Origin: Daucus carota subsp. sativus
Taxonomy: Eukaryota > Streptophyta > Magnoliopsida > Apiales > Apiaceae
Assembly (NCBI RefSeq): GCF_001625215.2
Contig: NC_030385.2
Coordinates: forward strand, 45,285,598-45,349,597
Reading direction: 5' to 3'
Length of the DNA stretch: 64,000 nt
In this document: in pieces, positions 16,223 to 63,947 of the stretch
How the letters are laid out: each line of letters starts with the position of its first letter
Position numbering within the stretch: position 1 is the first letter of the stretch
Program-made: the position numbers and the translations under genes
Notes under the pieces: generated by a model
The model's database searches: none
What the model was told of the DNA's origin: nothing
The model's input: the letters and a program-made list of their open reading frames with translations, nothing else

Positions 16223-16275
16223 AATGCGACCTTTGGTGTTTTTTTTTTTTTTTTACAGAGAATGCGGCCTTTGGT
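16223..16275. repeat. Poly(T) micro-insertion with 15-bp target duplication
   Basis: AATGCGACCTTTGGT (16223-16237) and AATGCGGCCTTTGGT (16261-16275) flank a poly(T) run ending ACAGAG, i.e. CTCTGT plus poly(A) on the minus strand. Confidence 0.85.
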
Positions 16276-16373
16276 TAAAATCATCAAATTATATAAATTT
16301 ATTGGTATACACAATATGACGGATTTAGAATTTTGAAGAAGCCATAGCTTCTAACACTTTTCTAAACAGGTTA

Positions 16374-16700
16374 GGATGTGGCGTTGTTTGGAAGTTAGAT
16401 GTTTGAGCAAAAATTAGAGGTTTGACCACTAGAATCCGCTAATTTTAGTGTTTGGTAATTATCGGATTGAAATAGAGGTTTGGGTCCAAAAAGCTAATTT
16501 TGAAAAAGCTACTTCGAGGAGCGTTTTGGATTAGAGGTTTTGGTTTGTGTCAGAAAAAGCTAATCAATCAGCTATTTACCAAACAGTTTTACGAGAAACA
16601 GCTAATCCAATCCGCTAGTCAAAACATCAAATTCAATCAGCTAGTCAGAACATCTAGTTCAATCCGCTAACCGCTGACCATTAATCCCCAAACAGAACCT
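16374..16700. mobile_element. MITE-like element with TTGTTTGG/CCAAACAG ends
   Basis: The left end carries TTGTTTGG and the right end CCCCAAACAGAACC, an imperfect inverted pair. The interior repeats AATCCGCTA, CAGCTAGTCA and GCTAATC motifs, as in short non-autonomous DNA transposons. No clean target duplication was found, so the superfamily is left open. Confidence 0.45.
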
Positions 16701-17073
16701 GTTTCTTTTTTAAAAAATTTTAAAGGTCAGTCGATACTAGAAGTGAGCTACTTCGTTAACTTTTGAGCTCCGTATGTTTGTCGGAATACCCTGGTCCGAG
16801 CTCTGTATAAGCGGAAGGAGAACTCGCATGTTTGCAACTATGTTGGAAGTGATTAGGAGTGGACTTGGATCCTATGGATGCATAGTTAGGTCATAGGTGG
16901 CATTTGGAAGCAGCTATCTGTTTGCTGTTATTACGTTTCATTTTGGGACATTGAAAGGGACAACTCTCTTATCCTAGATCACACTTCGTTTCTATCTTGC
17001 ATTTTTGGTAACTTGCGATTTAAGGAGTAAAGTGGACGAGGTCTTGATTTAGGCGTGTATTTAACAGGATTTT

Positions 17074-17737
17074 AATAGATTAATGATAATTCAATTTTCT
17101 TTTTCTCTCTTCTCTCCAGCCGCCTCCTATTTTCATCTCCGACGGGGCTTTCCACCGGAAACATCGGTTTCCGGTGGAAAGCCCCAAATCTTTTCGTTTG
17201 ATTGCTAGTTTTTGATTGTTCTTGCTTTTTCATTGAGTTTCTTAATAAATCTCCATATTCGGAGAAAGTTTTCTTAGATCTATATCACCGAAACTTTCGA
17301 TTTTCGTTCTTATTCGCTTCCAGAAGCCTTTTTGGATTTGTGAGTGGATCGATTATCTCCTGAGCGTCGTAGTGCAGATCTAATTGTTTTAGTTTGTTTT
17401 GATTATAGTTTGATTTCTCTCCCTGGTGAGAGTGTGTGATTTTTCTCTCCTTTTGTGAGAGTGGTTTGGATTCATCGATAAAACCTTTCGGGAATTGCAT
17501 TTGTGGTCGATAGCTCAAACGGAGTTTTTGGAAAAGATGGTGAACATAGAGCAAAAATTTATACATGTACCATCGTCAATTTCAACATTGCTTATTTGTC
17601 TCATCTTAGGTATGAAGACAGGCATGTTAATTTTTTCTATGTTTGTTCAACTCGATCATTCTTGTAGATGCCGTATGGCCATTATTTATTGAATTATCTC
17701 CTTTTCTTAAAAAAAAAAATAGATTAATGATAATTCA
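17074..17737 (+). mobile_element. Non-LTR retroposon with poly(A) tail and 20-bp target duplication
   Basis: The exact 20-bp direct repeat aatagattaatgataattca occurs at 17074-17093 and 17718-17737. The intervening 624 bp starts with a CT-rich 5' end and finishes in an 11-base A run (17709-17719). This is the signature of target-primed reverse transcription (LINE or LINE-mobilised non-autonomous element). It has no long open frame, so it is non-autonomous. The perfect target duplication indicates recent insertion. A perfect hairpin lies near its 5' end. Confidence 0.88.
17144..17185. repeat. Perfect 19-bp inverted repeat with 4-base loop
   Basis: The left arm 17144-17162 (ggggctttccaccggaaac) and the right arm 17167-17185 are exact complements around ATCG. 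In the retroposon transcript this would be a very stable hairpin about 50 bases from the 5' end. Confidence 0.95.
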
Positions 17738-17942
17738 TAAATTTTGATTATTGATATCTGGTTTTGATTTAATGTGAATTTCTGATAAAATGTCACAGAA
17801 TTGAGATAAAATTTTGGAATTTAGTTGTAATGTTTTAAAATTTCATAATTATAGTAGGATTTCAGAAAACATCAAATTAACTGAACAATCTCGCATGATC
17901 CATTATTTTATGAATTCAAAATTCATCAGAATTTGAATATCA
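17738..17942. other. AT-rich spacer
   Basis: Short AT-rich sequence between the retroposon and the Helitron. Nothing recognised. Confidence 0.5.
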
Positions 17943-19090
17943 CTAGTTGAGAAACCGCGCGTTGCGGCGGCCTATAAAAATTATATTAATGATTTAATAT
18001 TAATATTTGCAAAATAAAATAATTTTGTGGCTGTCTATAAAAAGTATATTCATGTTTCAAAATTAATATTTGTAGGATAAAATAAATTTATATTATAAAA
18101 ATCTTGATGTAATACCAATACTAATATATAAAATTACAAAATTGTACTATAATTCATGGTGGAAAATGAAAATACTTATACACGTAATTAACAATTTAAA
18201 GCATGACAAATCTTTATTTTATTTATTTTATTTTTTTTGAAAAGTAATCATGTTCTTACATTGTCACCTTCCTCCAATTTTTTTTTTTCCTGTATACAAA
18301 ATAAAATATATAAAAATTAACAACAACATGTCAGATGAACAAAACAAATATTATAAAAGAATAACCAACATACATCACTAATAGTTAATTTATTGATATC
18401 AACCATCAATATCATATGAAGACTATATTCTTTTCCCGTGTTTGGATTTGTCGACTCCAATATAACGGTCTATAACTACCTTTGTTTGCAACAATCTTTA
18501 TTTTTTTAATATTGTATAAACAGCCTTCACTTGGCACCTCGAGTTAGAAATCGAGCAACAGAACTATCACCAGAGAGAAGTAGGGTTGTGGTATTGAGAG
18601 AGAGGAGGTTGTATTTATATGATCCAAAACCCTACCATCTATAGAAGTATTTATAGGTGCAGAGAGACTTGTGTGCTGCTCTTTCCCATAATTGAATAAT
18701 CCGAACAAAATCAGATTAAAACTTTCAAGTTACTATATTCCATAAATAATATGTCTTTCCCATAATTAAATAATTTGAAACAAAATCAGATTAAAATTTT
18801 CAAAATACTATATTCCATAAATAATCTGAAAATATGTATTTCCCATAATTAAATAATTTGAAACAAAATCAGATTAAAATTTTCAAGATACTATATTCCA
18901 TAAATAATCTGAAACAAAATCAGATTCTGAAACTTGCTTCTAATATTCCTGAAACTTAAAAAGGTAGTTTTAATTTTTGATATTTTTCATCCAAAAATTC
19001 CAGAAAATTAGAAAAATAAAACGGAGCGATGTGAGAGGCGCCACCTACACGCCCCACGCTTCTCCTTTATATAAGTATATTGAATATTGA
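17943..19090 (-). mobile_element. Non-autonomous Helitron
   Basis: On the minus strand the element starts TCAATATTCAATATACTT after an A, and ends with a GC-rich near-palindrome (CCGCCGCAACGCGCGG), a short spacer TTTCTCAA and CTAG followed by T. TC start, 3' hairpin, CTRR end and A/T insertion without target duplication are the Helitron hallmarks. Near the 5' end is the AAAGGAGAAGC plus GC-rich segment seen in other plant Helitrons. At 1148 bp with no Rep/helicase it must be mobilised in trans. It contains a threefold tandem repeat. Confidence 0.72.
18681..18922. repeat. Three tandem copies of a 74-84 bp unit
   Basis: Units begin at 18681, 18755 and 18839, each running TTTCCCATAATT..AATCAGATTAAA..CTATATTCCATAAATAAT. 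Copies 2 and 3 are nearly identical; copy 1 is more diverged. They lie inside the Helitron. Confidence 0.9.
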
Positions 19091-20445
19091 TTGTATTTTA
19101 ATGGATCTTAAGTAATTTCAATTGAATACCATTATATTTTTAAATATATTTTAAAATCCTGATTGATCATCATCAGTTTTTATAGGATAATTTGAAATCT
19201 TAATTAAATCCGAGTCAAATACATGTGATTACGCTCAACAAAAATTGAGTTCTTAATATAAAAGAGATCTATCATATCATAATCTTTTTCCATTGTAATT
19301 TATACCGGTCTTCTCAGCGGCATAAAGACAATTCACATAGTTCAAATTACATGTACTTCAACCAATATGAATATTAATTAAAAGAATAATAATAATGTTG
19401 ATAAAAACAAAGTGGAAGAAATCAAAGTAATAAAGACAAGGAGGATAAATTGGGTGGAGATATTGGTTCTTTTGTTTGTCATTTACCAAATCCTATTTTG
19501 TTGCCTCCTTTTGCCTTTAAAGATTCATACATACATCTGTGTGTATAAGAACTGGTCCATACTTTAAAAAGAAAAGAAGCCATCATGTAACAAATACTCC
19601 TACCTGAGTTTCTATATGGATCATTAGTTGTACATACATGATATATATGTGAATACAAAGCAAGGTTTGGTGAAAAAAAAAAGATAAAAATTGACACAAT
19701 TTTATTTTGAAAAAAATGACAATTAAAATGGCAGTTTCTCGATGGTTACAAAAAATCTCAATGCTTAACAATACCAGCTAAAATATATGCCATTGACTAA
19801 ATTTTAATACACAAATTTGTACATCTTTTTCAATAGTTATATAATAAGAAAATCCCAGTATTTAATAATATCAATTGAAATATTCATCACTTACTCCTAC
19901 TTTAGGGCACAATTTTGTACATATGAATCTTAAAAAGAGTTCATCAATGAAACTTAGGTACGAATTTTGTTACTACTTGAATTTTAGAAATTAAAACATC
20001 AATATTGACCGATGAGGAGACTTTTTTTTTTTTTTTTACGAAAGAGGAGTCTGTTCAGTTTAGTGGAAGCTTGTAAAAAAATTTGATTATTGGGTTCATT
20101 TGCTATTGGGCCAATTGTTTCTTGGCTTTGAATAGTTGAGTAAAAAGAATAGAAAGTATTGAAGTTCACTGTGCTCCTAGGAAACTGCCGCCACAAAGAA
20201 GAAGAGTGTTTAATGTTTTGGGCTAAATCTGTATTGACCAGTCCACTTTGTACACCAGGCCCAACCCATCAATGTCCGCTACAAGGATAGCTTTGCTCCT
20301 TTTTATTTGCATGGCAAGACTCCTGACTTTTTAATCTTATTATAAAAACGTTTTTTTTTATGCTTAAAAAAAAATAACGATTTTTTTTTATGATGGTCCG
20401 GGCATACTAAGCACCAAAATTTTTAAATTTGAATGATTTCGACTT
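19091..20445. other. AT-rich intergenic DNA
   Basis: No exon recognised. It contains two poly(T)/poly(A) micro-insertions with flanking direct repeats (20014-20052; 20347-20392) and otherwise unique AT-rich sequence. Confidence 0.5.
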
Positions 20446-20819
20446 GAGCATCTTCAAGAGACTCTTCATTTAGGCTCCTAACTTGAGATTTGAGGAGAGA
20501 GAGGAAAAATGTTGCTCGAAGAGTGGCTCTTAAATCACTAAGAGCCTCTTGTTTCTCTTTCCTCTCTCCTCAAAGTTAGGAGCCACCACATGGCTCCTAA
20601 CTTATTTTTTCACAATAAAAATATCTTTCCCTCCAATTCACCTCTATTTTTCCTTCTCCTTTGTTATAGTGGAGCCCAATATATGAATAAAATATGAAAT
20701 AGAGAAGAGATGTAGAGAGTATTGTTGGAGTTTACACTCTTAACTTTGTCCTAAATTACTAAGAGCCACATTTTTTATATTATATTTAGGAGCCAACAAG
20801 GAGGCTCTTGGAGATGCTC
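20446..20819. mobile_element. PIF/Harbinger-like MITE, 374 bp
   Basis: Terminal inverted repeats GAGCATCTTCAAGAG at left and CTCTTGGAGATGCTC at right, extending imperfectly to about 30 bp. Interior motifs (TGTTGGAGTT, TCCTAAATTACTA, TTATATTATATTTAGG) match the element at 31703-32077, which has nearly the same length. Target duplication is not clean here. Confidence 0.75.
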
Positions 20820-21495
20820 TATTCCTAATAATGGTGGACCGCCTACATTTACAACAACCAAACCAATCAAAACCCTTCAATTTTATAAATGTTAGTGCTT
20901 AGCATATGCACATGAGCACACACTACAAACCCTTATAATAATATTATTATTATGTCATCTCATCTGCACATAAATAATGTAATATTAATTTAATAAATTT
21001 TATAATATTGTAATAAACATGTTAATATTTTTCTGTAAATATTGTATATAAACGCAACGAACTCAGATTTATATATCACTAAAACTAAAATATTATTATG
21101 GCAAAAAAAAACTAAAATATTAATATTTTTAATTGATCGGTATTTAGACTGTTTTAATAATATTTTAATACAATTAAATATATTTAAAAGTTTTAACCGT
21201 TTTTTTTAAGACCTATTTATTTATAGATAGATCTTGACTGATTTGAGTACTAAAGAATTATTTGACGTGGCACCAATTTTTTGTTTCATCCGGGTAATGT
21301 CGATGTCGTAGTCACGGATAACTACTATCTTCATGCTACATAAATCCTGTGGGTTTTAGCAGAATAAAATATGTCACGCCCACAGATAAATCACATACGA
21401 CTTTCATATCATACTCATCAACAAGCTACCACTAGCGAGTATATTTATTATACTCAGCTCCGTCCTCGTAGTGTGATATATTTGGTACCGGCAGT
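20820..21495. other. AT-rich intergenic DNA
   Basis: No gene seen. It holds a poly(A) micro-insertion with a 15-bp exact duplication (21081-21122). A short frame beginning at 21371 has no recognisable homology and is not called. Confidence 0.5.
21081..21122. repeat. Poly(A) micro-insertion with 15-bp target duplication
   Basis: AAAACTAAAATATTA is at 21081-21095 and 21108-21122; the insert is TTATGGCAAAAA. Confidence 0.8.
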
Positions 21496-22073
21496 TAGGG
21501 CTGTACATTCAATCCGCTCAACCGCATCAACCGCAACAACCACCCGCAACCGATCCGTGTATTATGGATAACCGCACAATGTGGACGATCGCGGATGGAT
21601 TTTTTAATAACCATTAATTTGCGGTTTGGTTGCGGATTCATTTTTTTTAAAACCGCAAAAAACCAACCGCAACCGCCAACCGCACATTATATAAATTTAA
21701 ATATTTTTATTATATATGTTTATATATTTACATATAGATATTCACATAAATTAAAAAAAGTTACTAAATTAATGAAATTTGGACTCTTTGAGCAAGGCCC
21801 AGTATAAATTAGTCAATGTGTCCATGATTGTAATTTATTTCATGCTCCAAATGGAAACTTATATCAGAGTGTATGATAGAACTTCTTTGTCTAACTATTT
21901 TAGCGGTTGAACCGCAACTCAAACCGCAACCAACCGCAATTACGTGGGTGGATTTGGTTGGTTTTTTTTAACCAACGGTTTGGTCGCGGTTTGAGATTTT
22001 AGAAAACCGCAAGTTGCGGTTTGATTCGGTTATTACCCTCCAACCGAACCAATCCGAACCGCGTACAGGCCTA
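21496..22073. mobile_element. hAT-type MITE, 578 bp
   Basis: Inverted ends TAGGGCTGTAC and GTACAGGCCTA differ at one base. An 8-bp target duplication CCGGCAGT flanks it (21488-21495 and 22074-22081). The interior is rich in AACCGCAACC/GGTTGCGGTT motifs in both orientations. The 8-bp duplication and TAGGG ends fit the hAT superfamily; no transposase is present. Confidence 0.85.
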
Positions 22074-22077
22074 CCGG

Positions 22078-22449
22078 CAGTGTTCTAAAAATCCCCGATT
22101 TAACCGATAAATCCCCGATTAATCCCCTGCAAGGTCGCCCACCGATTCGATTTTTGAAATCCGATTAATCCTTATATATATTTCATAATCGAAGTATATG
22201 TGATAAATTATTAAAATTAAAATACTATATTACTTTAAATATGAATAATTATAGAGTTTATAAATCTAGTAAATATATTAGTTACTAAATAACTAATATA
22301 ATAATGACTAAATATTAAATAATATTTTAATATTAAAATAAACCCGATTTTAACTCCGATTAATCCTTCCGATTAATCCCCGATTTCCGATTAATCCTTA
22401 AATCAGTAGCTCAACCGATTATGTCCGATTCCCGATTTCTGTAACACTG
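22078..22449. mobile_element. MITE with CAGTGTT ends, host of the hAT insertion
   Basis: Inverted termini CAGTGTTCTAAAAATC at left and GATTTCTGTAACACTG at right. The interior repeats CCGATTAATCC motifs. The left tip is shared with the target duplication of the adjacent hAT MITE, so that element landed at this element's end. Probably also hAT-like; flanking duplications are degraded. Confidence 0.7.
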
Positions 22450-22874
22450 GGTGTCATGTATTTTAATGTTTTTATAAAATATGATTAATAATATATTAAA
22501 ATTACTTTTTTAAATGAAAATTTAGATAAAATCTAACCTAAAATTTTGTTTTGGTAATTTTTTAAAAAAAATTGAAAAATTATATTTTATAAAAATATTT
22601 AAATACGTATCGAATAGCAAAAATTATGAATAAAATTAAACAGGATAAGGAGAGTATATTTTACATCAGTTCCTATCTTATCTTTCACAATTTTCTACAC
22701 TCCACTTTGTAAGTTATCAACATAGAACTATGCAAAAATTCATATAAAAACCTAGCAGATAAGATCAACATTAATACTTAACAGGCCCCGTCCGCTATAT
22801 AAGATATCAAATGTCATATTTTTACAGCAAGACAAACTCGACATCAATATTCATTATTCACATCACATTAGCTT
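22450..22874 (+). promoter_or_regulatory. Upstream region of the 149-aa protein gene, with TATA-like box
   Basis: AT-rich flank. CTATATAAG at about 22796-22804, some 70 bases before the ATG at 22875, is a plausible TATA box with a short leader. No other element is asserted. Confidence 0.5.
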
Positions 22875-24015: not shown

Positions 24016-24031
24016 TGATAATAATGTACTA

Positions 24032-24266
24032 CTCCCTCCGTCCCACTAGGTTCTTTACGGTACTTTTTGGCACGCATTTTGAGAACCCTATAAAGTATGA
24101 TTCCATAATGTCTTTTTTTTTGAAAAAAATTCTGAAAAAAAGTTTGATGTTTAAACTTTTATTCAAAAGAAAAAAATTTAAAAAGAAAATTATTAAACTA
24201 TACTTTAAAAGAGCCTCAAAATGCGTGCAAACAGTGAGCGTAAGCTTCCTGTTGGGACGGAGGGAG
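24032..24266. mobile_element. Stowaway (Tc1/mariner) MITE, 235 bp
   Basis: Ends CTCCCTCCGTCCC and GGGACGGAGGGAG, flanked by TA (24030-24031, 24267-24268), with AT-rich arms pairing over most of the element. It accounts for overlapping short frames on both strands here. Confidence 0.93.
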
Positions 24267-33028: not shown

Positions 33029-33062
33029 AGTCTCCATTTTTTTTTTAAACCAGTCTCCATTT
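33029..33062. repeat. Poly(T) micro-insertion with 11-bp target duplication
   Basis: AGTCTCCATTT is at 33029-33039 and 33052-33062; the insert is a T run plus AAACC, i.e. GGTTT plus poly(A) on the minus strand. Confidence 0.7.
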
Positions 33063-33189
33063 GATTCAGATCATAAATAATTTTTAAATTTTAAAATATG
33101 CACTTCAATGGGACAAAGTCGGCCCAAAGCAGAAAAAAGTTCTCCTGAACAATGCAAAATCAGCCTAGCAACCAAAATAAAGAAAAATA

Positions 33190-33408
33190 CTCTCTGTTTT
33201 GATATATAGGTGGCTTGATATTTTAGCACGTATTTGTAAGTGCTTTGACCGTAGAGTTAAAATTATTATTTATAAATTTTTTTTAATAAAAATGTAAAAT
33301 TAATATTACAATTTATAAAAGAAAATTTTAAAAATAACAGTTTTAATTAAGCGGTCAAAAGACATAGAAGTGTGTGCCAAAAAGTCAAGCGGTCTATATT
33401 AAAAGGAG
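33190..33408. mobile_element. Decayed Stowaway MITE
   Basis: Ends CTCTCTGTTTTGATATATAGG and its partner CTATATTAAAAGGAG, with TA at both flanks (33188-33189, 33409-33410). It shares the GTG(T/C)GCCAAAAAGTCAA-type block with the element at 35680-35914. Confidence 0.75.
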
Positions 33409-33842
33409 TAAGTAAAACGTGAAAGGGGTCGAAAAGGCAAACTGCTCCGCGACTTTCCAAAAATCCACATAATGCAAAAATCTAAACCCCGAAAATCAAG
33501 AAATCTCTTCAAAAAAATAGGACCGAATCAGATTCGCAGTACGAGGTTGCGTAAAGTGCAGGCATAACTCGTTAGTACGTGGCACATAGGCCAGAAGCCC
33601 AGAATGTAAAAATCTTGACTTACACGACTGATATTAAATTGTAAGGAGAAATATATCCATCATTACACGATCCATATCGCTATCCATCGTCCGTTTTTAA
33701 CTTTAATTGTTCTTCTGTCTCGATCGACCTATTTTCGGTGTAGATAAATATCGGTATATTTATTTATCGTTCTGCATTAAATATTTCAACTCTTCTTTAT
33801 TTTTCTGAGCGTGCTGATTGTTGAAGCTTCTGCATTGAAGTG

Positions 33843-35475
33843 ATGGCGTCTAAATTGGTTTCGATAATCGTCTTCGTTTTCGATGTTATTGCTTTTGGCT
33901 TGGCTGTGGCTGCTGAACAACGGAGAAGCACTGTATGTTTTCGCTAGTTTTATCTCCTTGTCTGTTTTGTTTGGTTATAATATATGTGACGGAACAAGGA
34001 TTTTGAAATAGTCGGGATTCGGAGATATGGTTAATTCTTGAAGATCAATCCGAGCTTTAAATAAATTTTGTACTAAATTTTAATTAAGAGCCGAGATATC
34101 AAAATTCTATCGAATTTGAAGTTGAGAGGGGTCCTTGTGTAGGATATGTTTGTTTGGAAGCACCAGTGTTCAGTGGTTGAACAGGGCTAGGGTTAGTTTA
34201 GTAGCTCACAATACAAATTTCCTGGGATAATGGTCCACAATAATCGATTATAAACAACAATCGATTATAAGCAACATACGTTCAGAATGGTAGAATGAGT
34301 GATTTTTCCGCCAGAAAAAAACCGTTGATAGTATGTTGCATCATACGTATGTCAGGGATCCGGACCCAATTTTTTGATTCTCTGGTGTTTGTATTTATAA
34401 TTTTAAAATTATGATCATTATACAGTTTCATTGTGGAATTATGTAATTGTTCCCTCACTTACTAAAATCTTGATCGAAATTTATCAATGAACTAAATTCT
34501 AAGGAATGTTCTTGTTCATTGAGTAAGTTAAGAATGCTATGCACTAGAAATTATGAGTTAATAAACTAACAATCCGCTTATTCCCATTATACACATAACT
34601 ACTGAGGTTGGATTTGGTCTGCAGACTGCAATTGTAGTGTTATTGAGGATGAATGTATACTTGTAACTTCGAAGTAACAATGCTGATGCTCATGTTCCTT
34701 ATTTGTTTAAAATTTTGATAATATTCCCGGTATAATGTTATATGCATATTTTAGCCTGAAATTCAGATCGCCTGTTTATTAGTCCTGAAATAGTGTTGGA
34801 CCCGAAATCCTTTCTGGTAATGAGTATATGCTTGTTAGTGTCAGATGTCTAGGAGAAGATAATAATCTTCTTCCTCTGCAGGCCACGACAACACAGGATT
34901 CAGAACAGAACTACAATTACTGTGTCTATGACTCGGACATTTCAACTGGATTCGGTGTTGGTGCTTTCTTGTTCCTCATGGCCAGTCAAGCTATCATAAT
35001 GGTGGCAAGCCGTTGTTTCTGTTTTGGAAAGGCTTCAAGGACTGGAGGCTCCCGGTCTTTTGCACTTCTACTTTTCATATTATGCTGGTATGATTCAAAT
35101 TCTTTCTTCAACACTATCAATTCATCAAGCTGCTTCTCGTCTTCAATATTTGGACTATTGCCAATTAATCTGTTACACCGACTTATTTGAAAATATTCTA
35201 TGTCGGACTTAATTAGGGTGACCTTTATCATTGCCGAGGCATGCTTGTTAGCTGGTTCAGTGAGAAACGCCTATCACACCAAGTATGTCACAATTTTCAG
35301 CCAAAACCCTCCTTCTTGCCAGACTGTACGAAAGGGTGTCTTTGCAGCAGGTGCAGCGTTCACTTTCTTCACTTGCATACTATCTCAGTTCTACTACATT
35401 TATTATTCCAGTTCGCGAGAAGCTTTTGCACCATACGGCGGAGAAGCTGGTGTGGGACTTGGAACCTTCAAGTGA
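33843..35475 (+). CDS. DUF1218 four-helix membrane protein
   Basis: Three exons: 33843-33932, 34882-35087 and 35217-35475; 184 aa. Exon 1 encodes a hydrophobic N-terminus (MASKLVSIIVFVFDVIAFGL) that is a signal anchor or first membrane helix. Exon 2 has GVGAFLFLMASQAIIMVASRC followed by SRSFALLLFILCW; exon 3 has VTFIIAEACLLAGSVRNAYH and GVFAAGAAFTFFTCILSQFYYIYY. Four membrane helices and the conserved Cys/Ala pattern match the plant DUF1218 family, some members of which affect lignin or organ symmetry. The specific role here is unknown. A large first intron (about 950 bp) has no recognised insertion. Confidence 0.9.
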
Positions 35476-35679
35476 GGCATGTCAGTATGCCACTGCTAAA
35501 AGCCTTATTCTAGGAATTCTTTATTTGAACTGAAGATATATATAGTTAAAAATAGTTTCAAGCTTTTGTTCAAGTACAATAGTATCCAGATGCATATAAT
35601 CTTGTTATTATTTTTCAGCACAACAGTCAGCACCATAAATCAGAAAGATTCAGTTCATAAAAACATGGTTTAGTAAGTA

Positions 35680-35914
35680 CCCCCTGTCTTTTGAAATACA
35701 GGCGGTTTGACTTTTTGGCACACATTTCTAAGTCTTTTAACCGTTTAGATAAAATTGTTATTTTTAAAATCTTCTTTCTCCGAATTATAATATCAATCAT
35801 ATATTTTTATTCAAAAAAATAAAATTTCAAAAATAATAATTTTAACTATACAGTCAAAGGACTTCAAAATGTGTGCCAAAAAGTCAAACGACTTATATTT
35901 TAAAACAGAGGGAG
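35680..35914. mobile_element. Stowaway MITE, 235 bp
   Basis: Ends CCCCCTGTCTTTTGAAATAC and the partner TATTTTAAAACAGAGGGAG, flanked by TA at 35678-35679 and 35915-35916. The subterminal GACTTTTTGGCACACATTT pairs with AAATGTGTGCCAAAAAGTC at the right. Confidence 0.9.
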
Positions 35915-36376
35915 TAGCAAGTCAAATAATAATAGTAGTAGCAATGAACGAACACGATTGGATTGTCCGAGTGCGGGTCTATCCTCAGTTGTCTAGCACA
36001 TCCGGGTTCGATCAATGCATAATCAATTTAATTTTGAATTTTTTTCCTGTAATTGGAAAATTAAGAATAAAATATTTATTTATAATAAAAAAATTAAAGG
36101 TAAATTACAAAAATGAACTGACAACACATTTTACATTACGAGTCCAAAATAAACGTACTCATCTAATTCGGGATATAAGGATCCTTTATAAATAACTGGT
36201 ACAAAAAAGAATAACAAAATTAGATTACTAAAAATTTATCTCAAACTAACTTCTAATTATAAGTCTTTATTATAAAAAAATATAATTCACTTTAAAATCC
36301 AACACAGATTTTAACTCGTGACTTAAAAGCGGTGCCAAACAAGCTCAAAAAAGTTGTACCCGATTACACATATACC

Positions 36377-42031: not shown

Positions 42032-42220
42032 CAATCTTATTTTCAAAAATACTACCTTATCCAATCTTATTTTCAAATCTCTAAAATATTTTCAAAAATA
42101 CTACCTTTTTGAAAATATTTTTCAAAAATACGGTGGTTGCATATGCAACCATATATGCAACTACAAATCCTGATTTTCAGTTTCAGTTTTCAAATGTCAT
42201 TTTCGACCTCATCTTTGGAG

Positions 42221-42287
<67 letters not shown>

Positions 42288-42860
42288 TTGAAAACTGGAA
42301 CTCGAAATTAGGAATTCAGTTGCATATGGTTGTATTCAGTTGCATATGGTTGCATTCAGTTGATTCTATTGCAATCTAATGGCCCCGCCAGGGGCGCACA
42401 CCATACATCCGTTGCAACTTACAGTTTTCAGTTGCATTTAGTTGTATATGAGGTTGCATTTAGTTGCCTATGAGGTTGCATTCAGTTGATTCTATTGCAA
42501 TCTAATGGCCCCGCCAGGGGCACCCATACTTCAGTTGGAACTTACAGTTTTCAGTTGCATTTAGTTGCATATGAGGTTGCATTTAGTTGCATATGAGGTT
42601 GCATTCAGTTGATTCTATTGCAATCTAATGGCCCCGCCAGGGGCACCCATACTTCAGTTGGAACTTACAGTTTTCAGTTGCATTTAGTTGCATATGATGT
42701 TGCATATGAGGTTGCGTGCAACCTCATATGCAACGGAAAACTGTAAGTTGCAACTGATGTATGGGTGCCCCTGGCGGGGCCATTGGATTACAATAGAATC
42801 AACTGAATACAACCTCATATGCAACCATATATGCAACTGAATTCCTGATTTCAAGTTTCA

Positions 42861-42924
<64 letters not shown>

Positions 42925-43092
42925 TCCAATGATGAGGTCGAAAATGACATTTGAAAACTGGAACTTAAAATCAGGATTTGTAGTTGCATATATGGTTGCA
43001 TATGCAACCACAGTATTTTTGAAAATATTTTAGAGAAGGTAGTATCATTGAAAATAAGATTGGATAAGGTAGTATTTTTGGAAATAAGATTG
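42032..43092. mobile_element. Foldback element, about 1.06 kb, with (TA)n in each arm
   Basis: The two ends are near-exact complements: the left half starts CAATCTTATTTTCAAAAATA, and the right half ends with the partner. Symmetric landmarks recur inverted: GTTGCATATGCAACCA, AATGACATTTGAAAACTGG, a (TA)n run in each arm (42224-42284 and 42863-42920), and GGCCCCGCCAGGGGC-type boxes. The dyad centre is at 42716/42717. The left arm is longer because a 123-126 bp unit occurs three times there and once in the right arm. No transposase. Superfamily not assigned. Confidence 0.88.
42362..42715. repeat. Three tandem 123-126 bp units in the left foldback arm
   Basis: Units start at 42362, 42488 and 42611 with GATTCTATTGCAATCTAATG followed by GGCCCCGCCAGGGGC. 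Units 2 and 3 are nearly identical; unit 1 differs more. Each also contains short GTTGCATATGAG repeats. Confidence 0.9.
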
Positions 43093-45191
43093 AAATCGTG
43101 GTTATGAATAAAAAAAGCCCTTGATAATATGTTTTAAAAAAAAAATATCTTGTTATCTAGGATTTTCCACATATGATTGATGTGAAATAATAATAATAAA
43201 AAAAAGTATTTGGAATCTCATAAATTTACTAATTATGAATATGATGTTGATAATTATGTTGGCCTTATATTTTTTATCTCAATATATTAAAAAATAATAT
43301 AAATTTAATCTCAGCAAAAATATAAAATCTTATAGCAAATAAAAAATTAAAATTTGTGGGTATCGAAAATTATTTTACTCCTAATAACCGGAAATTTAGG
43401 TCAATGTTATAAAAAAAGAATCACATTTAATTTATGAAAAACAGAAAAAATATTAATCAAAAATTAATCAAATCGATTGGCGATTAATCAAATAATTAAT
43501 TAAATAATCAAAAATTTAACCAATTCAATAAATTATAAAATCAAAATTAATTATTAATTAATCTCAATTAATCCTCAACTTTTAAATTAAAATGATTTCG
43601 GTATGACCCCAGGGAGAAGGCGACAAAAAACACGAGTCCAGTAGTCACAACTCACACCTAAAACCAGCAACGGTAGGAAAACAAGAGCCCATTGAAATGC
43701 AGAGGAGAATAGACAATCTATACAAACTGTGGTCAAGCCCACAGATAAGCAGAGAAACAACCGACCCAAACCGGCCCTATTTTCGGCCGAACCAAACCGA
43801 AAATTTTAAACCGTTTTTTAATTGGGTTGAATCGGCTCCAACCCGATTTTAATGGGTTGGGCATGGTTTTAGATTTTATTTGGCCAACCCAACCCAACCC
43901 GAGCGTATATTTTAATAAAAATACATTATATATATATAATATATATCTAACAAAATTGTATATATATAAAATATAGCTACTCTATTGAAATTATAACATT
44001 GGTGTGATAAAATTGAATTATAACATTGGTATCTTTCCTCGAGTTTCTTTTAAAATATCTTCCTTGCACATTTGTCATTCGTCTACTTGCCTTTGAGAGT
44101 TCGATAGTGAAGCTACTATTCTTTAAAAGTCCGAACTTGTTTTAATACTCTATAATTTATAGGTTGTGTAGCAATTTTAAAACTACGTTTAGTACTTAGT
44201 AACCCGTCAAACCGACCCAAACCAACCCAACCCGAAGTATGACAAATTGGGTTGGGTTATAAATTAATTTTAATGGGTTGGCTTCGAAAATTAGCAAACC
44301 GAATTTAATGGATTGGGTCGATAAAAAACCTAAACCGGGCCAACCCGACCCGCGTACACCCCTACCGTGCACAATCCTTCGTCTTGTCTCAAATTATTAC
44401 CATATCCCTATTGCTTTTTCTTTTATCGATTAAGTCTTGATAAATGAATAATTTAAGGTGAAAATTATATATATCGTACAGTTTCAACTAATTTATTAAA
44501 AAAAATATCAACTTTGTCATGTAAATTCGACAATATCAGTAATCTTCAAAAATATTTGATTGAGAAGTTTAACTATCTTGATGATGTAAAAGTTGTGAAA
44601 GCTGATAATGAAAGTGGGCAACTAATTCAAATATTTTTAGAAACATATATTTAATTGAAATGATTGTATTATTTTTTATTTTTAACCGTTGTCGAAATCG
44701 AAGAGAATTACCAAAGTTCTAAGATTAGGCCAAATCAACCATTTTCGTTAACCATTTCTCATTTTTAAATATTAATAAATTTATCTTAAATTTAAGCCTC
44801 TATATAAATTAAATTATTGATCAACTCTGTTTGTATGATTTCCTTCGGAAAAAAACTCTGTTTGTGTGAATTTATTTTGACCTCCTATAAATTCTTAAAT
44901 TAATAAATTTATTTACTTTTATGTCTTGATAATACAAGACTTGAATTAAATATGTATCATTTTTATATCATGTATTTGGTTGACTAGTGGAATAAATGTC
45001 GGTAATTTAAAATTTTGTAAACAATTAATATTAATTATTTTGAAAAATTATTTAACTAATATTGCAATATAGTTTGGAGTTGTTGATTTAGTTTTGTATT
45101 GAAATATATATATATATAGATGAAATAAAAAAATTGATTTCTCATATTCATGCAAGAAACTCACTTCTCGTCTAGGTATGAAAAACTCGTA
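43093..45191. other. AT-rich intergenic DNA with hAT-like remnants
   Basis: No gene. From about 43758 to 44360 there are many AACCCAACCCGA/GGGTTGGGTT motifs in both orientations ending GTACACCCCTAC, as in hAT-like MITEs; the left terminus was not found. A micro-insertion with a 16-bp duplication lies at 44823-44869. Confidence 0.45.
44823..44869. repeat. Poly(A) micro-insertion with 16-bp target duplication
   Basis: AACTCTGTTTGTATGA (44823-44838) and AACTCTGTTTGTGTGA (44854-44869) differ at one base; the insert is TTTCCTTCGGAAAAA. Confidence 0.85.
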
Positions 45192-54443: not shown

Positions 54444-55804
54444 TGAGAGGAAAAAAGGGAAAACAAATTGTAAATGATATCGGAGTCCTAGTATACACAC
54501 AACACAGGTAGGTTATGACTGTATCATTGCAGATAAACCCCGATTTATTGCTGTAATCTATGAATGTAATGTACTAACACTGTTTAATCAGATCTCTAGT
54601 TTCTTCCTCAAATCACCACGTCCTTGAGATTTCTCGAAAGCAATTTACAATCTACAAACTTTAATATGTTTGTTACCAGAAATTGCAATAACTAAAAGCC
54701 CTTGCAATTGGCAGTGGGTCTTGCATCAACTTGGTGAAGCAATAATGAACGAAGTAAAGTAACTTTGAAAATTTAACAAAAAATTGTCATCAAAATTCAA
54801 ACCTCCTCCTTCACAAAACGTGCCATATTGCACAGGAATATATATAAGAATCTCGTATAAACTACTAAATATAAACTAAAACACATTAACGGACCCTAGT
54901 TGGGTCTTGACAAGACCTAGATGAGGCCTAGTGGATAGGATGGGCCTAGTGGGAAGGAAGTGAGGTCAAGTATCGGCTCTTAAGCTTGAATAGAGCCTCT
55001 CCGAGACCAGTCTTAAGCCTTAGGTTTTAGATGACCTGAAATGAATTGAATGGTCGAAGGCCCCTAGATGGATGATGTCATCTATAACTCGAGGTGGATT
55101 GAGTTAGTCAAGGGCGGACCCTATAACTCGAGGTGGATTGAGTGGGTCGGGGGTGGTAATGTCATATAGGACTCGTCTATCTTGATTCTTGCATTAAGAA
55201 TAAATTGCTGTGTTCCTGTATATACACACGAAGTTAAGTGAACCACCACCACCTTGTCTGTTGTCTGTTCTTCTAGAAGGCTACTTGCCTTCAGCATCCA
55301 TTCCGACAACTTTAGCTCGGTGAGAAACTCGAGTACCTCCACTTGAAGGGCTATTTGCCTTCAGCATCCACTTTAACGACTTTGGCTCCTAAAAAAAATT
55401 AAAGATTTTCATGCATATAAAATGGCCAAGACGGAGATCCATTGTTGTCCTCTGATCAAAGAACATTTGCGCCCATGGGCCTGGCTTATAGAAAAATAAG
55501 CACTCCACATACTCTACCATAGTATCAGTGCTACAATTCCACTTGTATAAACAAAATTAAGCAGAATGTGATGAGACTTATAGCATAAACCAACAATGGG
55601 CTACATCAATAATGTGAAAACCAACTTTCCTGTTTATTTCATTACTGTGTCTGATATGCATCCATCATAACTTTGTATCATTCAGATGTGAAAACTAACC
55701 GAGCAAATCAGAAACTACAACCAAAAAGGCAAGTAACGCTAGCTAAAATCAGGAAAGGGTCACAAAATACATATTAAAATAATGTTCCGCCTTTGCACTC
55801 TCAA
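54444..55804. other. Intergenic DNA with short direct repeats
   Basis: MLO 3' flank, then a GC-balanced stretch (54890-55400) containing CTATAACTCGAGGTGGATTG twice (55082, 55121) and a GCCTTCAGCATCCA-centred 44-bp block twice (55276, 55345). This may be an LTR or other repeat remnant; no ends were found. No gene called. Confidence 0.45.
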
Positions 55805-56123: not shown

Positions 56124-57885
56124 TCCTCACTGCCACCAACAACAAGTTCAAAAGCATTACAGCAAGTCAAATATTACAGCACCAAAAATAAAATTTATCA
56201 ATAGCACGATGCTATAGCTTGAACTATATATAGAACAAAATGTAAACCGAGCTACATTTCAGCACTTTTTGTTGTTAAAATACAGGCTATAGGCTATAGC
56301 AATAATTCCGTCTATTTTAGCACAACCATTATACTTGCTCTTACACTGAAGATCAAACAAAACCGAGACACATAGCTTCCCTAAACAATATATAAACCGA
56401 GCTATATTTTAGCACTTTGTTGTAAAATTATGGGTTGTAGAAAACTCCATCTATTTTAGCACAACCATTGCACTTGCTCTTACGGGTCGGAACTAGCTTC
56501 CCTAAACACCGCCAATTAAGGAAACTGGAACACGACACACGAGCTAAAAATGTAAACTAACTGTGGGGACATTACACATAATTACTTCCAACAAACACAA
56601 TCCATTCTAACAGAACACACCGGAGCAGTCTAGTTTACGAGTTTTCGCGAAACAGGCATACTCTAAACAGGCTAAAAAAACGAATGCAACTTGATGGGCA
56701 GCCTTAGAATTGTTAGATTCACGTGTTTCATAGCCCTAATTTAAACTTGTAAAGAAACCCTAATTGAAATCGAAGATTAACAATTTGTGAATCGAAGAAA
56801 TTAAAAGAAGATACCTGCTGTTCTTGAGATTGATCACTGATTCACAGCTACAATTGAAGCAACCTGAGATTTTTGCAGTTCAATCTGGGACCAAATTATG
56901 GAACTTCGTAATCATTCGTTTTTACTGTTTTTTCAGTTTGAATATATGAACTTTTTAAATAAAATAAACAAAACTTAAATAAATAAACAAAACTTAAAAG
57001 TTTTTGCAAGGCAACAAAATCGAAGAGCACCATTTTCACGAAAATTATTAGAGAAATTCAAATCTCCAGAAAACAATAGTTGAACCTCAATTAAATAATA
57101 ATTAATAAATTAATATTTTATTAACAAAAATATATATTTTTGTTCTTGATAAAGTAATAAATTTGATAAATTAATATCTTCTATGAATCCCAACATTATT
57201 ACTTTTATTAGATTTAAGTGTAATTGTTTAAGATAATATTATCTGATAAAATATTTATTAAATTAAAATTAAAATTATAAGTAATCATAATATTAGTTAA
57301 ATTAAACTTGTATATTATATATAGATAGATTATTATAAAAAAAAATCAGATTATTATTATAAGAAAATTCTTTCTGAAAAAATATACTTTTCAGAAAATT
57401 CTGACTATTATTATAAAATGTAGTTGGGAGGATAAATTTTCATTATTATAAGTAGGTTAATTTGTATTTCTAAAATGAATCAGATAGAATTGCAAATTAA
57501 TTTGTATAGAATAGAAAGTTGTCTTTCTTTCTTCTTTTAAGCTTCCATAGTAGCTTTTTTAACTGCAGCATGCTACTGGTGAGGGTTTTTTTCATGAAGT
57601 TACCAAGCACAGAAGCAAGCACACAAGCAAGCACTAGTCTTTGTAGGTTTGCCTCTGCAAATCTCTCTTCATAATGTCAGAGTGAACAATAAACTAGATA
57701 GCTATCTAAGATATAGCCATTGCCCGGGGAAAATTGTATATATACAGTAGGCGAGTAGCGAAATTTCAGATAGTTAAACAGCCGGCAAAATGTCAGTAGA
57801 GAACGGAATCATACACTAAACCATAACACGCTAAACTACTCCGATAAAGGAAATGAGTTTGCTAGTGAAGTATTTTCAAAGAACA
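56124..57885. other. HIPM-like leader intron and intergenic DNA
   Basis: 56124-56815 is the probable 5' UTR intron, holding two diverged copies of a block ending ACAACCATT..ACTTGCTCTTA. From 56950 on is AT-rich intergenic DNA, then the 3' flank of CTL1. No further exon seen. Confidence 0.5.
56229..56490. repeat. Two direct copies of a MITE-end-like block
   Basis: Copies at about 56229-56344 and 56378-56490 share GTAAACCGAGCTA, TTTTAGCACAACCATT and ACTTGCTCTTA. The last block resembles the terminal repeat of the PIF/Harbinger-like MITEs here (TAAGAGCAAGT), but no matching opposite ends were seen. Confidence 0.6.
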
Positions 57886-60800
57886 TCATTGTGTTAGTCT
57901 TTGCACCTCGTTTTGGTCATTCAAGGTTTCCATTAAAAGGGGAGATGCAAATTGGGCAGTCCCTTGATGCTCTTCAGAATCCTGGCAGAATGAGAGGATG
58001 ATTGTATCTATTGACATCTCGACAACTGCAAAGAATAGGGTAGCAACGACGTAGCCCAGAACCCAGCATGCCTGCAGAAATGTATTAAAATAATTAAATG
58101 AAAATTCATGAGGAGGTTATCATATGCCAAAATATTAAGCTGCGTGATATAAAAATTGATAGCACATTCCCATTGTTAAGAGCACATCCAAGTAATATCT
58201 CATTCCTTAATTATTGGCCAGCTAGGGAGTTTGTTAGATATATTAATAGGGAATAGACGAAACTTACCAGCACAGGAAATAGAGGCGAAGAGATTTTATT
58301 GTGGGCGGACCTATATCTGTGAGACTCCAACATGAGGAAAGCAAAAAGCACGCTTGAAAGGCTCACACATAACTTGCCCAAGAAAAGGATAACATCTCCA
58401 ATAATGTTCACTTTACCGATCCGAAGAATGTTACTGATAATTAACTCTGTAGACATCTCAGAAGCTCTGAAGAAACCTTCACCTGTGATAGCAATCTGCA
58501 GAGAGACGACACTTTCAAATACGTAGACTAGAAAACAAGACTAAAGTCATAAAGAACAAGAGTCCTTGTTCTGCACCAAAGAAGTGATTAGTACTGAACG
58601 GAACCAAGGCATGAAGTAACTATGGTTTTATTGCTCACGCACCGACTTCATAATAGAAAATAGGGAAGAATTTGAAGAATGAGAAGAATGCCTAGAAACT
58701 TACCATAATATATGCATTGCGGTTCACTGATTTAATGGTCCATCCAATACATCTCAAGCAACTATTTGAAGAATGGTATGCCACTTTTCCAATCCAACTT
58801 TCAGGCATAATATCCGCAACTTTCAGTCTTCGACGTATTGCCTCGAGTATAAATCTAGTAGATTCAACAAACTTCACGATTAGAGAACCGATAGCAACAG
58901 ATCCAATGCTATACCGAGCAAGCCGCTTCATTGAGGAAAACACTGGAAGAAATGGAACCTTAGGCTGGAAATGCAAAGTTGGAAAAGCTTCAATTAGCTC
59001 TATAGATTGCGGACATGTTTAAGTTTCAATTCTAAAGGATATAAAAACTCAGTGTTTCTCATAAACAGAGTGTCAACCAGATTACGTCGGTAGTATAAAT
59101 ATAAGATTGCATGTAGATGTAGTGAACACTGAACAGGTATTTACATTCTAAAAACAAGAATTTCAGAGATAAAGAGAATGATCCTGGAACCAGTGATAAG
59201 AAACCCATCAGTATAGGTTTACCAGATAACTCCTATTAAGTTTGCAGTTTGCTGATGTAAATCAATTAAGTAATATATAATGAAAACTGTTTTGAATTGA
59301 ACAGAGCGTCCACAAACTAAAACCTCTACATTTTATATGATTACGAACCAATACAAGTTAAACACCGAATCTTATGCCAAACAAAAAAAATGAGTCATTG
59401 TGCTCTATGTGCAGTCAAATTCACACATGACATACTAGACGACTGACACTCACCGCAGTTTCACCTCGGGCTCCACGAGCCCAATAGTATGAAGCAACAG
59501 AACCGGCGATTACGGTGGAGGAGCATGCAACAAAGAATTGTGTAGCCCAATAGCACCCAAACAAGTGGAAAAGGATTGCAGCTCCGATGTGAGATGTATA
59601 GTGTATGCTATAGCCACAACAACTGTTACAGCTGACCCGTTTCGTTTTGAGGTCATACGCACAGCAGTTGGCATTGCAATCATTCTGAACAACCTGACCA
59701 GAACTGAAAAGATGGAGCGCAGCTGACAGCCAAATCATGTAGAAAACTGCTAGGATGGCATATGGAATGAGTGGAAAAATAATAAGTGCACGGACTTCTC
59801 CTATGACCTTTGCAGCAACCTGCAATTTAAAAAATATCAGATAATTTGATGCAATCAAGATAAAGGAATAAAGAAGGAACAAGTAGAAAAAAGTCTCAGA
59901 TTTATATTAATTTATTTTAGTCAATTATAAAGCACAAGCCATAAGATTAGAGATTCAGATGGCGATTCACTTGGAACTTCAAGTATACCTCAGGCTAGTA
60001 ACTTTAACTTTTTTACTGACAAGCTCTGATTACATTTCATAGCATTTAGAATACAAACACTAGATAATAGCTCAAAACCATATAGTTGCGAAGTCAAATT
60101 TCTTAGTCCTTGTTTAGGTGTGAGTAAATTGTTATAATTAGAGATGAAAAGGTTCAGCTTCTTGTTTGGCAGAGAGGAAAGAAGTAGGGAAATTCAGGCC
60201 AGGTAATTTCTCTGTATTGATGTTTTAGAGTATTGATAGCAACCCAAAGGCTAGAGAATTAGAGGCAACTTTAAGGAGTATTTTAATATCATTGATTCTG
60301 ACAATTGAACTTCGGATAACCTTTGTCTCCAGAAAAAAGTAATATGTACTGTAGAATTTGTAGTACCAGAAGGACTCTTGAGTCTTGACTTCAATACCCC
60401 TAGGCCCTACCCACCTCGCCCAAATCCTAAACCAACTATCAATTATAATTTTATCCAAATATATTTAATCAAGTTTATGCAGGTCAGTTCAGCACCTATT
60501 TTCCACCAGCTCGACTGACTACCACCATCTAAATCTGTCAAACATGCATGTCAGCGAATGTTACTGAGCAGCTATCTAGAAGAACTAATCAACAACTTAG
60601 TACTATGGGCTACTTCTCGTAACAGAAACGCGGAACACATATTTTAAAAGATCATTAATTAGTAATTAGATTGACAAGCCCTCTAAAATTTGCACTTGCC
60701 TTTAAGACAGATGTTGCCATTAAGATACGTCGAATGATGGCTATAGAGGAAAGAATGGCAACAATCATCACCGCAGTCATAAAAACAGCAGCAACACGAA

Positions 60801-63745
60801 TATGATTCAACTCCTGAAGAATGTAACACTTGAGAAACAGAAAAATATCCAAAGCTTTTAACATCAAAGACTTAGTATCCCAAACCCACCCTTGCAGAGA
60901 CAGTGTAGTAGGGATCACGCTCACCAATGATTGGAGAGATTGCACTATTTCCGATCCATCCAGCTGATAATAATATGAAAAAAAAATTGCATCATAAGTA
61001 TTTTATAATATCTAGTTCCTTCACTTGGTATATTTGTACCAGGAATAGGTATACAGGCAAATAGAGGATCACAAAGTATATCTGCTAGTAGAAACAAAAG
61101 ATTATCATAAAAAACACAAGTTAAATTGAAAACAAATGCCATTAAAGGAAAACTCAATAGCAGTCTCTTATCAAATGTAATTTTATAGGAAGAGAGATAA
61201 ATGAACTAGGGAGTAAGCGTTCATCAATAATTAGGTTTTATGCTACCATCATATAACCCGCAAAAACAATTACATGTATTTGGTATATGTATGAAGGTCT
61301 TATTCATAAAATTTTTATTTCACTGAGATTACTGAAGAGGTGAATTTTAATAAACTAAGCAAACAGCAGATTAGCAAAAGCACAGACAAAGACTTCTTAA
61401 GAGTAAAATATAATATGATCTTGCAACCTGACGCAAAAGTAATGCTTATATAAAGATGAAAATTGACAATAACAAACATTTCAAACATGCCATAAATAGA
61501 GTTAATTGACTTTGCAGCTTTAATGATCCCATGAGGCATGAGCTTTTGCCATCCCTAGTCTTGGTCCTAGAATAAGTTCAAGTATTAATTCATGTTCTAA
61601 CCTCAATCACTATTCTTACACCAACTTAGAAACCCAATCAGCAGTTATTTTTCTGAATCAGCGCCATAAAACATAGATACGGGATTAGTAGGGCACACCT
61701 TTCAAGTAGTAGAACATTGTGACTGATATTATAAGAACATTGAAGAGGATGACAGTTATCCATGGCATTCCAGCAACAAAATGTCGGATCAGCAAAAGCC
61801 ATATCACGGACAGAAACAAGGGTACAATTCCACCACAAACAATCAAAACAGGCCAAGCTTTCCCAACATCAGCTACATATCTCTAAATATTAACAATGGA
61901 AATAAGTATAAACTTAGAAATTCACAAACAACAATACATCACAATTATGATATTCCATATTACAAACACACATCATTACTTCTACAGATGAGCAGGGTTC
62001 CTGCAGAGGTTCAATAACTCTAAAACAAAATGAATAAATTAAGATCAAAGATTATTGACCTTCAAGACTGATGAATGCGAGTTGATAGACCTGTGAATGG
62101 ATTTATCTATTAGAATGTCCTCAACAATGCTCACTCCACCCATCTCCCTCCAATGCCGCAAAGAGGCATTTGATGCACGCGCAATAAGCTGGCAGCTCCA
62201 ATAGACTACATCATGGGGGAAAAGGAAAAAGTAGCTGTTAATTGCAGCAAATATGTTACTGAGCTGGATAGAAGAATTTACACTGTGCAATAGCTGTGAG
62301 TACCATAGACAGTCATATTTGCACAACCAAGTGCACAAGATGTCTCTTTACTTACCATTTACACTTGGAAACACGATGGGGTAGCAAGGACCTTGAAGCT
62401 GAAGAGAACTATTTCTTAGTTGCGGGGTTAAATCGGCAAAATAGTCGTAATTTCTATCAATCCAGTCATCTATTGAGAGATGAATCTCGCCATCAGGATA
62501 ATCACATACCCAACCTAGAGAATCCTCTGATGGGTTTGGGCAATCCAACAAACACACACTTCTAGCATTGCCAAGCTTGAATTGACTATTCTTCAAACCG
62601 CTTTGGTAAACCTGGTTGGGATTTAGCCAGTAATGAAGTTCCAGTTCACGAAGGTTACGATGTGCATGTCTGTCACCACATACATTGCCCTCATAGTCCA
62701 AGCCAAAATTAAGCCTGTGAAACCAAATTTTGGTCATGACAATAACCAAATAAGGGAAACAAAACAAAACAACTAATGACTGACCCAAGCAGGAAGGAAG
62801 TAAGATTTGGATATACATAACAAGAGTGCTGTGAGATATAGTAGTCTGCGTAAGGAAGTTCCAAATTAATATTCATTTTGCTTTACTTGCAGTTTGTATA
62901 AACTACTTCAAGGAATTAAAACATGTGTTTAGTCCTTTTGTTTGCTAAATGAACCATGGTCATAACTAAGATGCTAAATTTACACTACGGAAAACACATT
63001 ATTAGTAATTAATGATGTATGATAGATAGACCCTAAATATGGGAAGCCGACATTGTTGCATCACACTATTAGCTGACCAATACTTGGGTCTCATAAAGCA
63101 AGACAACTGATAACAAGAAATTATGCCAGATTGCCAGCCACCAGTTTACACTACACATGGACCATTGGTATTACGGTCTGCTAAACCGTAAAACCTCAGC
63201 TTCTGTGGACAATTGCTTTGCTTGATTAGTTTCGTCCTACTCATTTAATAGTTATTTCAAAGTTATTTTATTTAGCAAAAACCCTGAGAACCTCCCAACT
63301 TGATGAACCTATAACCTAATTAAAACCTATTTTCACATAACAAAGCTAAAATAAAACAAAAAGCAAAATAGAAAACTTTCTGAAAAAGACCCTTAATCTT
63401 CCTCAACAATATAGATCAAACCAACAGATCAAAAAAACATTTTTTTTTTAGAAAAAAAACTAAAGTTGGGCATAAAATCTGCAAAAGCAAAGCAAGCATT
63501 GGGCAGTGTGAACATTATATTTCTTCAAAATAAAAAGATAACACAAGCAAGTACCTCAAAGGGTTTCCTTGGTTAAAAGCAAAGCTAGAGTTAACAATCA
63601 TAGCAACCCAGAAAGCAATGAAGAAGACAAGAAACACTACATCTCTGCACCTCCTGTTGTGCTTGATGATGCCATTATTATCACCACTCATTTCAGTTGA
63701 AGCTGGGTGTGTTGTGCCTACAACAGCTCCCAATGGCCCTCTCAT
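57886..63745 (-). CDS. CTL1: Choline transporter-like protein (CTL1/CHER1-type, SLC44 family)
   Basis: Ten exons: 63745-63555, 62714-62356, 62205-62060, 61882-61699, 60963-60890, 60813-60700, 59819-59454, 58964-58704, 58495-58268 and 58071-57886; 702 aa, close to the length I recall for Arabidopsis CHER1. The N-terminus has HNRRCRDVVFLVFFIAFWVA (first helix), then a long extracellular loop with NVCGD, LDCPNPSEDS and DDWIDRNYDYF; the CTL domain follows with IRRILMATSVLK, YAILAVFYMIWLSAALHLFS, HLFGCYWATQFFVA, and WTIKSVNRNAYIM. About ten membrane helices. The Arabidopsis protein localises to trans-Golgi/plasma membrane and cell plate and is needed for choline/lipid homeostasis, sieve plates and plasmodesmata. 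Exon 6 ends at a GC donor (AAAG|GCAAGT). Confidence 0.95.
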
Positions 63746-63750
63746 ATTAC

Positions 63751-63771
63751 TGTGTGTGTGTGTGTGTGTGT
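63751..63771. repeat. (TG)n microsatellite in CTL1 5' UTR
   Basis: About ten uninterrupted TG units directly before the CTL1 start codon region. Length variation would alter the leader next to the initiation site. Confidence 0.95.
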
Positions 63772-63899
63772 AATGGGTTGCTGAAACTGCAGAGTTTAGG
63801 GAGGAGAGTGGGAGATGAAAAGGGCTTGCGCGGAAAAAGCGGTGGAAAGAGTGTGTAAAAGAGGAGAATAAGACGATGGGGGCAGCAGTGAACTTGAAC

Positions 63900-63947
63900 A
63901 ACGATTGAGAAATTATTTTCTCAAAAAAAAAACGATTGAGAAATTAT
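63900..63947. repeat. Poly(A) micro-insertion with 17-bp target duplication
   Basis: AACGATTGAGAAATTAT occurs at 63900-63916 and 63931-63947, exactly. Between them are 14 bases: TTTCTC and eight A. Confidence 0.9.

Follow-up and report, generated by a model that had tools for sequence, protein, structure and literature searches.

Short A-tailed inserts between direct repeats in carrot DNA as probable tail-only scars of target-primed reverse transcription

What process leaves a run of A between two copies of a short direct repeat, with almost nothing else inserted? The question is raised by five sites in a 64,000-nucleotide stretch of the carrot genome (Daucus carota subsp. sativus, NCBI RefSeq assembly GCF_001625215.2, contig NC_030385.2, positions 45,285,598 to 45,349,597 of the forward strand; hereafter the window). 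At each site, two copies of a direct repeat of 11–17 bp enclose an insert of 12–23 bp, which is composed of a short stub plus a run of A (or the complementary sequence). A first-pass annotation of the window had proposed these sites (16223, 21081, 33029, 44823, and 63900) and read them as target-primed reverse transcription (TPRT) in which almost only the tail was copied. The layout was confirmed at all five, and the reading is supported by the strict polarity of the A-run, by empty sites at three scars outside the window, and by stubs that, taken together, are not copied from nearby DNA. The scars were probably left by TPRT by an enzyme of the long interspersed nuclear element (LINE) type that halted within about 15 nt of the tail (estimated probability roughly 0.78). 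The window scars are as follows.

16223..16275, minus strand: tail-only scar; repeats 16223-16237 and 16261-16275 (15 bp, 1 mismatch) around a 23-bp insert (16238-16260) that reads CTCTGT-A16-C on the minus strand.
21081..21122, plus strand: tail-only scar; repeats 21081-21095 and 21108-21122 (15 bp, exact) around the 12-bp insert TTATGGC-A5.
33029..33062, minus strand: tail-only scar; repeats 33029-33039 and 33052-33062 (11 bp, exact) around a 12-bp insert that reads GGTTT-A7 on the minus strand; run-centred score 11.
44823..44865, plus strand: tail-only scar; repeats 44823-44834 and 44854-44865 (12 bp, exact) around the 19-bp insert ATGATTTCCTTCGG-A5.
63900..63947, plus strand: tail-only scar; repeats 63900-63916 and 63931-63947 (17 bp, exact) around the 14-bp insert TTTCTC-A8.

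Two weaker sites of the same annotation, at 20014 and 20347, did not hold up.

20014..20052, minus strand: a weak candidate that was not accepted; TTTCGT (minus strand) and an A-run of 15–16 between copies of a 9-bp repeat (1 mismatch); best score 6.
20348..20392, no strand: rejected candidate (the 20347 site); a T-run makes up most of the repeat, and in scoring the layout comes out mirrored.

Under tail-only retroposition, the A-run is expected to abut the downstream repeat, the repeat to be single at the empty site, and the stub to be foreign. In the A orientation, the run adjoins the downstream repeat at the window scars; at 16223 alone, one extra base (C) stands between them. Sites of this kind were scanned for under one fixed set of criteria: repeats of 10 bp net or longer with no more than 1 mismatch, spacers of 6–30 bp, and A-runs of 5 or longer, with low-complexity repeats excluded. 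The window was compared with 98 local dinucleotide shuffles, and 18 stretches of 10 kb (L002–L019, 180 kb), which had not been used in forming the idea, were run through the identical script with 60 shuffles. The stretches were taken at hand-picked positions, two of them beside the window. Sites in them are named by stretch and position (L005:62 is position 62 of L005), and the window and the 180 kb together are given as 244 kb. With any spacer content, 50 spaced direct repeats were found in the window (8.2 in shuffles) and 165 in the 180 kb (23.7 in shuffles). Because spaced direct repeats of every kind exceed the shuffles, the repeat-spacer-repeat layout alone is not special, and the distinguishing feature is the side that holds the A-run. 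The first-pass annotation had staked its claim on an excess over shuffled sequence, and inserts whose A-run lies as TPRT predicts were in clear excess: 7 vs 0.18 in the window (mirrored, 1 vs 0.12) and 11 vs 0.53 expected in the 180 kb (mirrored, 3 vs 0.62). After removal of the false hit in L017 and of one duplicate from each of the two positions, 9 TPRT hits and 2 mirrored ones were left in the 180 kb (p 0.033).

Six of the 11 hits in the 180 kb were accepted (L002:5585, L005:62, L006:2862, L008:3188, L010:6711, and L018:9215), which with the five in the window makes 11 scars. Their stubs are 4–14 nt long, so that little beyond the tail was inserted. The hits at 13798, L007:8634, L010:5617, and L018:9418 were left out as weak. 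Rejected as false were 16395 (repeat-family copies begin at about its first repeat), 47994 (low complexity), L017:3175 (another copy of a repeat has the identical layout), and L013:4061 (a plain tandem duplication), and L008:932 is an inverted duplicate of L008:3188. L012:4101, with extra bases after the tail, enters the run-centred polarity count below and is not among the 11. A 21-bp tandem duplication (L008:3153-3194) overlaps the start of the L008 scar.

Polarity was measured from the runs outward, with 268 A/T runs of at least 7 in the window and the 180 kb (runs near stretch ends excluded). At a score of at least 12 for close direct repeats, the A-run lay against the downstream copy in 11 cases and was mirrored in 0; shuffles gave a mean of 0.025 and a maximum of 1 in 40. 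Without the inverted duplicate in L008, 47994, and the L013 hit, this strict set stands at 8 vs 0 (p 0.004). Among exact repeats of 12 bp or longer across the 244 kb, TPRT and mirrored positions were found 8 and 0 times at inserts of 5–30 bp, 2 and 8 times at 31–300 bp (1 and 7 at 31–120 bp), and 7 and 6 times at 301–1500 bp. With untemplated addition of A the run would fall on the opposite side, so the strict polarity speaks against it; on addition of T it has no such bearing.

Empty sites were looked for by joining the flanks with a single repeat copy and searching the genome, the best 40 candidates being scored per search. For seven sites in the 180 kb (best 40 of 1,998 candidates), 12 places matched the joined site of L005:62 at 97–99% and six places that of L018:9215 at 90–94%, all without the insert. 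In alignments of fetched copies, the insert and the second repeat were missing in 7 of 7 paralogs of L005:62, the 16-bp target being kept with at most 1 mismatch in four and altered in three, and in 5 of 5 paralogs of L018:9215, one of them with a target mismatch. These paralogs speak against ancestral tandem repeats at the two scars. Like these two scars, L002:5585 sits within repeated DNA, and here the insert is shared by several copies (absent in 1 and present in 4 of 5 fetched paralogs); the copy without it is possibly a loss between the repeats. One further copy of L010:6711 was found, also filled, and L006, L008, and L017 matched only their own place among the scored candidates.

The stubs, as a set, were not copied from nearby DNA: when 12 stubs (including that of L017, later rejected) were compared with 2,000 random places for the longest copy within 100 bp, the Fisher p was 0.72. 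Taken singly, p was 0.029 for 63900 (12 tests) and 0.056 for L002. One common source for all stubs is not supported, and the several source RNAs suggested in the first-pass annotation fit the differing stubs better. The L002 stub, CTCCTTTTC-A8, comes near the ends of a 614-bp retroposon family described below; a link between them is suggestive only. The L006 stub with A5 was found at 31 places with at most 1 mismatch (2 exact), compared with 8 for the reversed pattern. None of the window stubs was traced to a source, and Rfam and tRNA scans gave 0 matches. In the tail orientation, the repeats begin with A in 9 of the 11 accepted scars, compared with 0.397 of other spaced repeats (p 0.006). The base preceding the repeat was left uncounted, being constrained by the way in which repeat bounds are set.

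Retroposition machinery of the appropriate kind is present in the genome. RVT_1 (reverse-transcriptase) domains were found in long frames, e.g., of 1,201, 1,198, and 1,197 amino acids (150 scored of 3,607 candidates), which from their layout look like LINEs. At the four such loci that were read, the first A-run of at least 6 after the stop was A13–A17 and was preceded by C in all four (TTTAGC, TTTAGC, GTTATC, and TTTAGC). The window also holds a member of the 614-bp family, with a target duplication.

17074..17737, plus strand: insertion of a longer retroposon; 614-bp body (17094-17707) and A tail between duplications 17074-17093 and 17718-17737 (20 bp, exact).

This is probably the insertion that the first-pass annotation had called full-length non-LTR (lacking long terminal repeats). 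The body matched itself and 39 further copies at 91–97% (best 40 of 667 candidates), and no long open frame was found in the window copy. The scored copies (17094-17707, L020–L042) are mostly full length, and several start near AAAACCCTAG. Among ten copies of which the ends were read, seven end in CTCC-T(7–10)-C before the tail and three differ; the 3' end is CTCCTTTTCTTC in L021 and L022 and CTCCTTTTCTT in the window copy. In a search with the last 130 bp (best 40 of 563 candidates), 35 of 40 copies began by position 70 and 5 were truncated at 151–416; 31 of the 35 starts were matched by eye between lists and four were computed. Carried to the last 30 bp by simple arithmetic, this distribution of starts yields just a handful of tail-only copies, and truncation of this family was rejected as the only source of the scars. 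Within the body, 17144-17185 (42 bp) matches its own reverse complement at 90%. Diverged relatives of the family (71–78% over short stretches) lie at 14813-15162 and at L008:3897-4900; the latter carries a duplication of 14 bp, and its A-run is preceded by TTATC, as at one of the four LINE ends.

In the process proposed for the scars, one strand would be nicked by a LINE-type endonuclease/reverse transcriptase, and the nicked 3' end would prime on the poly(A) tail of an RNA. Copying would end after the tail and 4–14 more bases; a second cut 11–17 bp away, followed by repair, would give the flanking duplication. The acting enzyme would be of LINE type, the source RNAs may include the 3' ends of LINEs, retroposons, and mRNAs alike, and the short inserts are taken to reflect copying that halted early as opposed to later trimming.

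Among other processes, double-strand break repair produces similar structures: a staggered break that is filled in leaves a tandem duplication with filler between the copies, as in the patch-mediated duplications of Vaughn and Bennetzen. Spaced direct repeats of all kinds, mostly without an A-run, are six to seven times more frequent than in shuffles, and small duplications at breaks are known in humans and plants, as reported in PMC8355091. At 63900, moreover, the stub matches its own repeat in reverse complement. Filler has, however, no reason to carry its A-run exclusively next to the downstream copy (11 vs 0), the stubs as a set were not taken from 100 bp of flank, and the run in L005 is 18 A, so that break repair is an unlikely source of the scars. 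If an end-joining polymerase instead added an untemplated T run at a filled-in staggered break, T on a 3' end would, by reasoning, yield the observed polarity (A would yield the opposite). Nearly pure T runs of 7–18 plus a mixed-base stub would then be required and the tendency of the repeats to begin with A would be left unexplained, which makes this route scarcely credible. The scars could also be look-alikes, i.e., ancestral tandem repeats or the ends of other elements, and this is true of the automated hits L017:3175, L013:4061, and 16395. For the accepted scars it is very improbable: shuffles give just 0.025, and paralogs without the insert exist for three of them, outside the window.

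Tail-only TPRT has results against it as well. Polarity weakens as the threshold is loosened, to 15 vs 2 mirrored at score 11 (p 0.001), 17 vs 7 at score 10 (p 0.03), and 20 vs 9 at score 9 (p 0.03); a previous scan under laxer rules, in which run remnants of 3 bases were admitted, yielded 14 vs 9 and 9 vs 4 for inserts of 9–30 bp. The automated scans also gave some false hits (16395, L017:3175, L013:4061, and 47994). In the window search (best 40 of 758 candidates, the scored places mostly occupied by the 16395 repeat), 21081, 33029, 44823, and 63900 matched only their own place and no paralog, and a genome search with 16101-16400 gave for 16223 no paralog and 1 candidate, itself. Because no paralogous empty site was seen at the window scars, insertion is indicated by sequence comparison for the three like scars outside the window and not for these five. 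A paralogous stretch near 63900 (L013:2378) departs from similarity at the repeat. The stub of 63900, TTTCTCAA, is the reverse complement of TTGAGAAA within its own repeat and may be a snap-back product. No window stub matches any of the four LINE 3' ends read, and T4-C exactly before the tail, as in the L002 stub, occurs in 0 of 13 ends of the 614-bp family (window, L021, L022, and ten more). C does not precede the tail significantly more often than expected (7 of 13, p 0.066; accepted scars, 6 of 11, p 0.082). The TTTTAA-like nick motif that the first-pass annotation had proposed to look for is not seen in its complete form (TTTT/AA) at the scars.

The sampled DNA contains further features. 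An uninterrupted 1,409-amino-acid frame on the minus strand (1-4227), by eye similar to a Ty3/gypsy polyprotein, runs off the start of the window. A sequence at 33192-35916 is present in several diverged inverted and direct copies (33.2–33.4 and 35.7–35.9 kb) and resembles, by eye, a miniature inverted-repeat transposable element. A large inverted repeat (42119-43025; 163-nt arms, 97%) encloses AT microsatellites and a 123-bp tandem repeat, and a 23-bp exact direct repeat with a 16-bp spacer and no A-run lies at 55082-55143.

Longer LINE-type insertions with target duplication are familiar. The scars share an A tail, a target duplication, and identical polarity with 5'-truncated LINE, retroposon, and processed-pseudogene insertions, and differ in length: human L1 insertions have medians of 394 bp (somatic) and 1,240 bp (germline), as given in PMC12016303, whereas the carrot inserts are at most 30 bp. 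The first-pass annotation's statement that no named class exists was too strong, as L1-mediated 'pA' insertions make up 4 of 124 in the human disease list of Hancks and Kazazian (2016, PMC4859970). As described there, they are poly(A) without a recognisable element and are ascribed to L1, and the carrot scars likewise hold little beyond a tail. The human pA insertions in that list are 35–130 bp, and three of the four lie at deletions without target duplication, unlike the carrot scars with their inserts of 9–23 bp and duplications of 11–17 bp. The patch-mediated tandem duplications of plants that other papers credit to Vaughn and Bennetzen (2014) are similar in the short duplication and possible filler; polarity of an A-run would not be expected in them. 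No report of tail-only insertions in plants was found in searches of an open-access library, which is weak evidence of absence, as subscription journals were mostly outside the search. The very short, seemingly common, tail-only form with intact duplications may be the part that is new.

For the length spectrum, runs of at least 7 with exact repeats of at least 12 were binned by stub length. TPRT layouts numbered 9 at 0–30 nt (mirrored, 0; the nine include the dropped L013 and 47994), 0 at 31–100 nt (0), 1 at 101–300 nt (0), 3 at 301–700 nt (1), 2 at 701–1500 nt (3), and 0 at 1501–3000 nt (1). In this sample, tail-only scars seem commoner than longer insertions, in small numbers. The 8 strict scars in 244 kb correspond to one per 30 kb, and extrapolation to 441 Mb gives about 14,500 scars (Poisson 95% about 6,200–28,500), both from a non-random sample. 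At score 11, scars contain 5 of 35 A/T runs of at least 10 and 3 of 9 runs of at least 12. A more far-reaching and doubtful proposal gives TPRT by carrot LINEs an abortive first phase: most events would halt no more than about 15 nt from the tail, and the others would run on for hundreds of bases; scars, on the order of 10,000 per genome, would then outnumber longer insertions and be one of the main origins of long A/T tracts. Should the density of one per 30 kb hold, retroposition in carrot is undercounted, because inserts of 10–25 bp are too short for ordinary repeat annotation. The scars would then be a source of A/T mononucleotide tracts and give precise presence/absence markers, and they would offer a sequence-based measure of how far plant LINE enzymes proceed at the outset.

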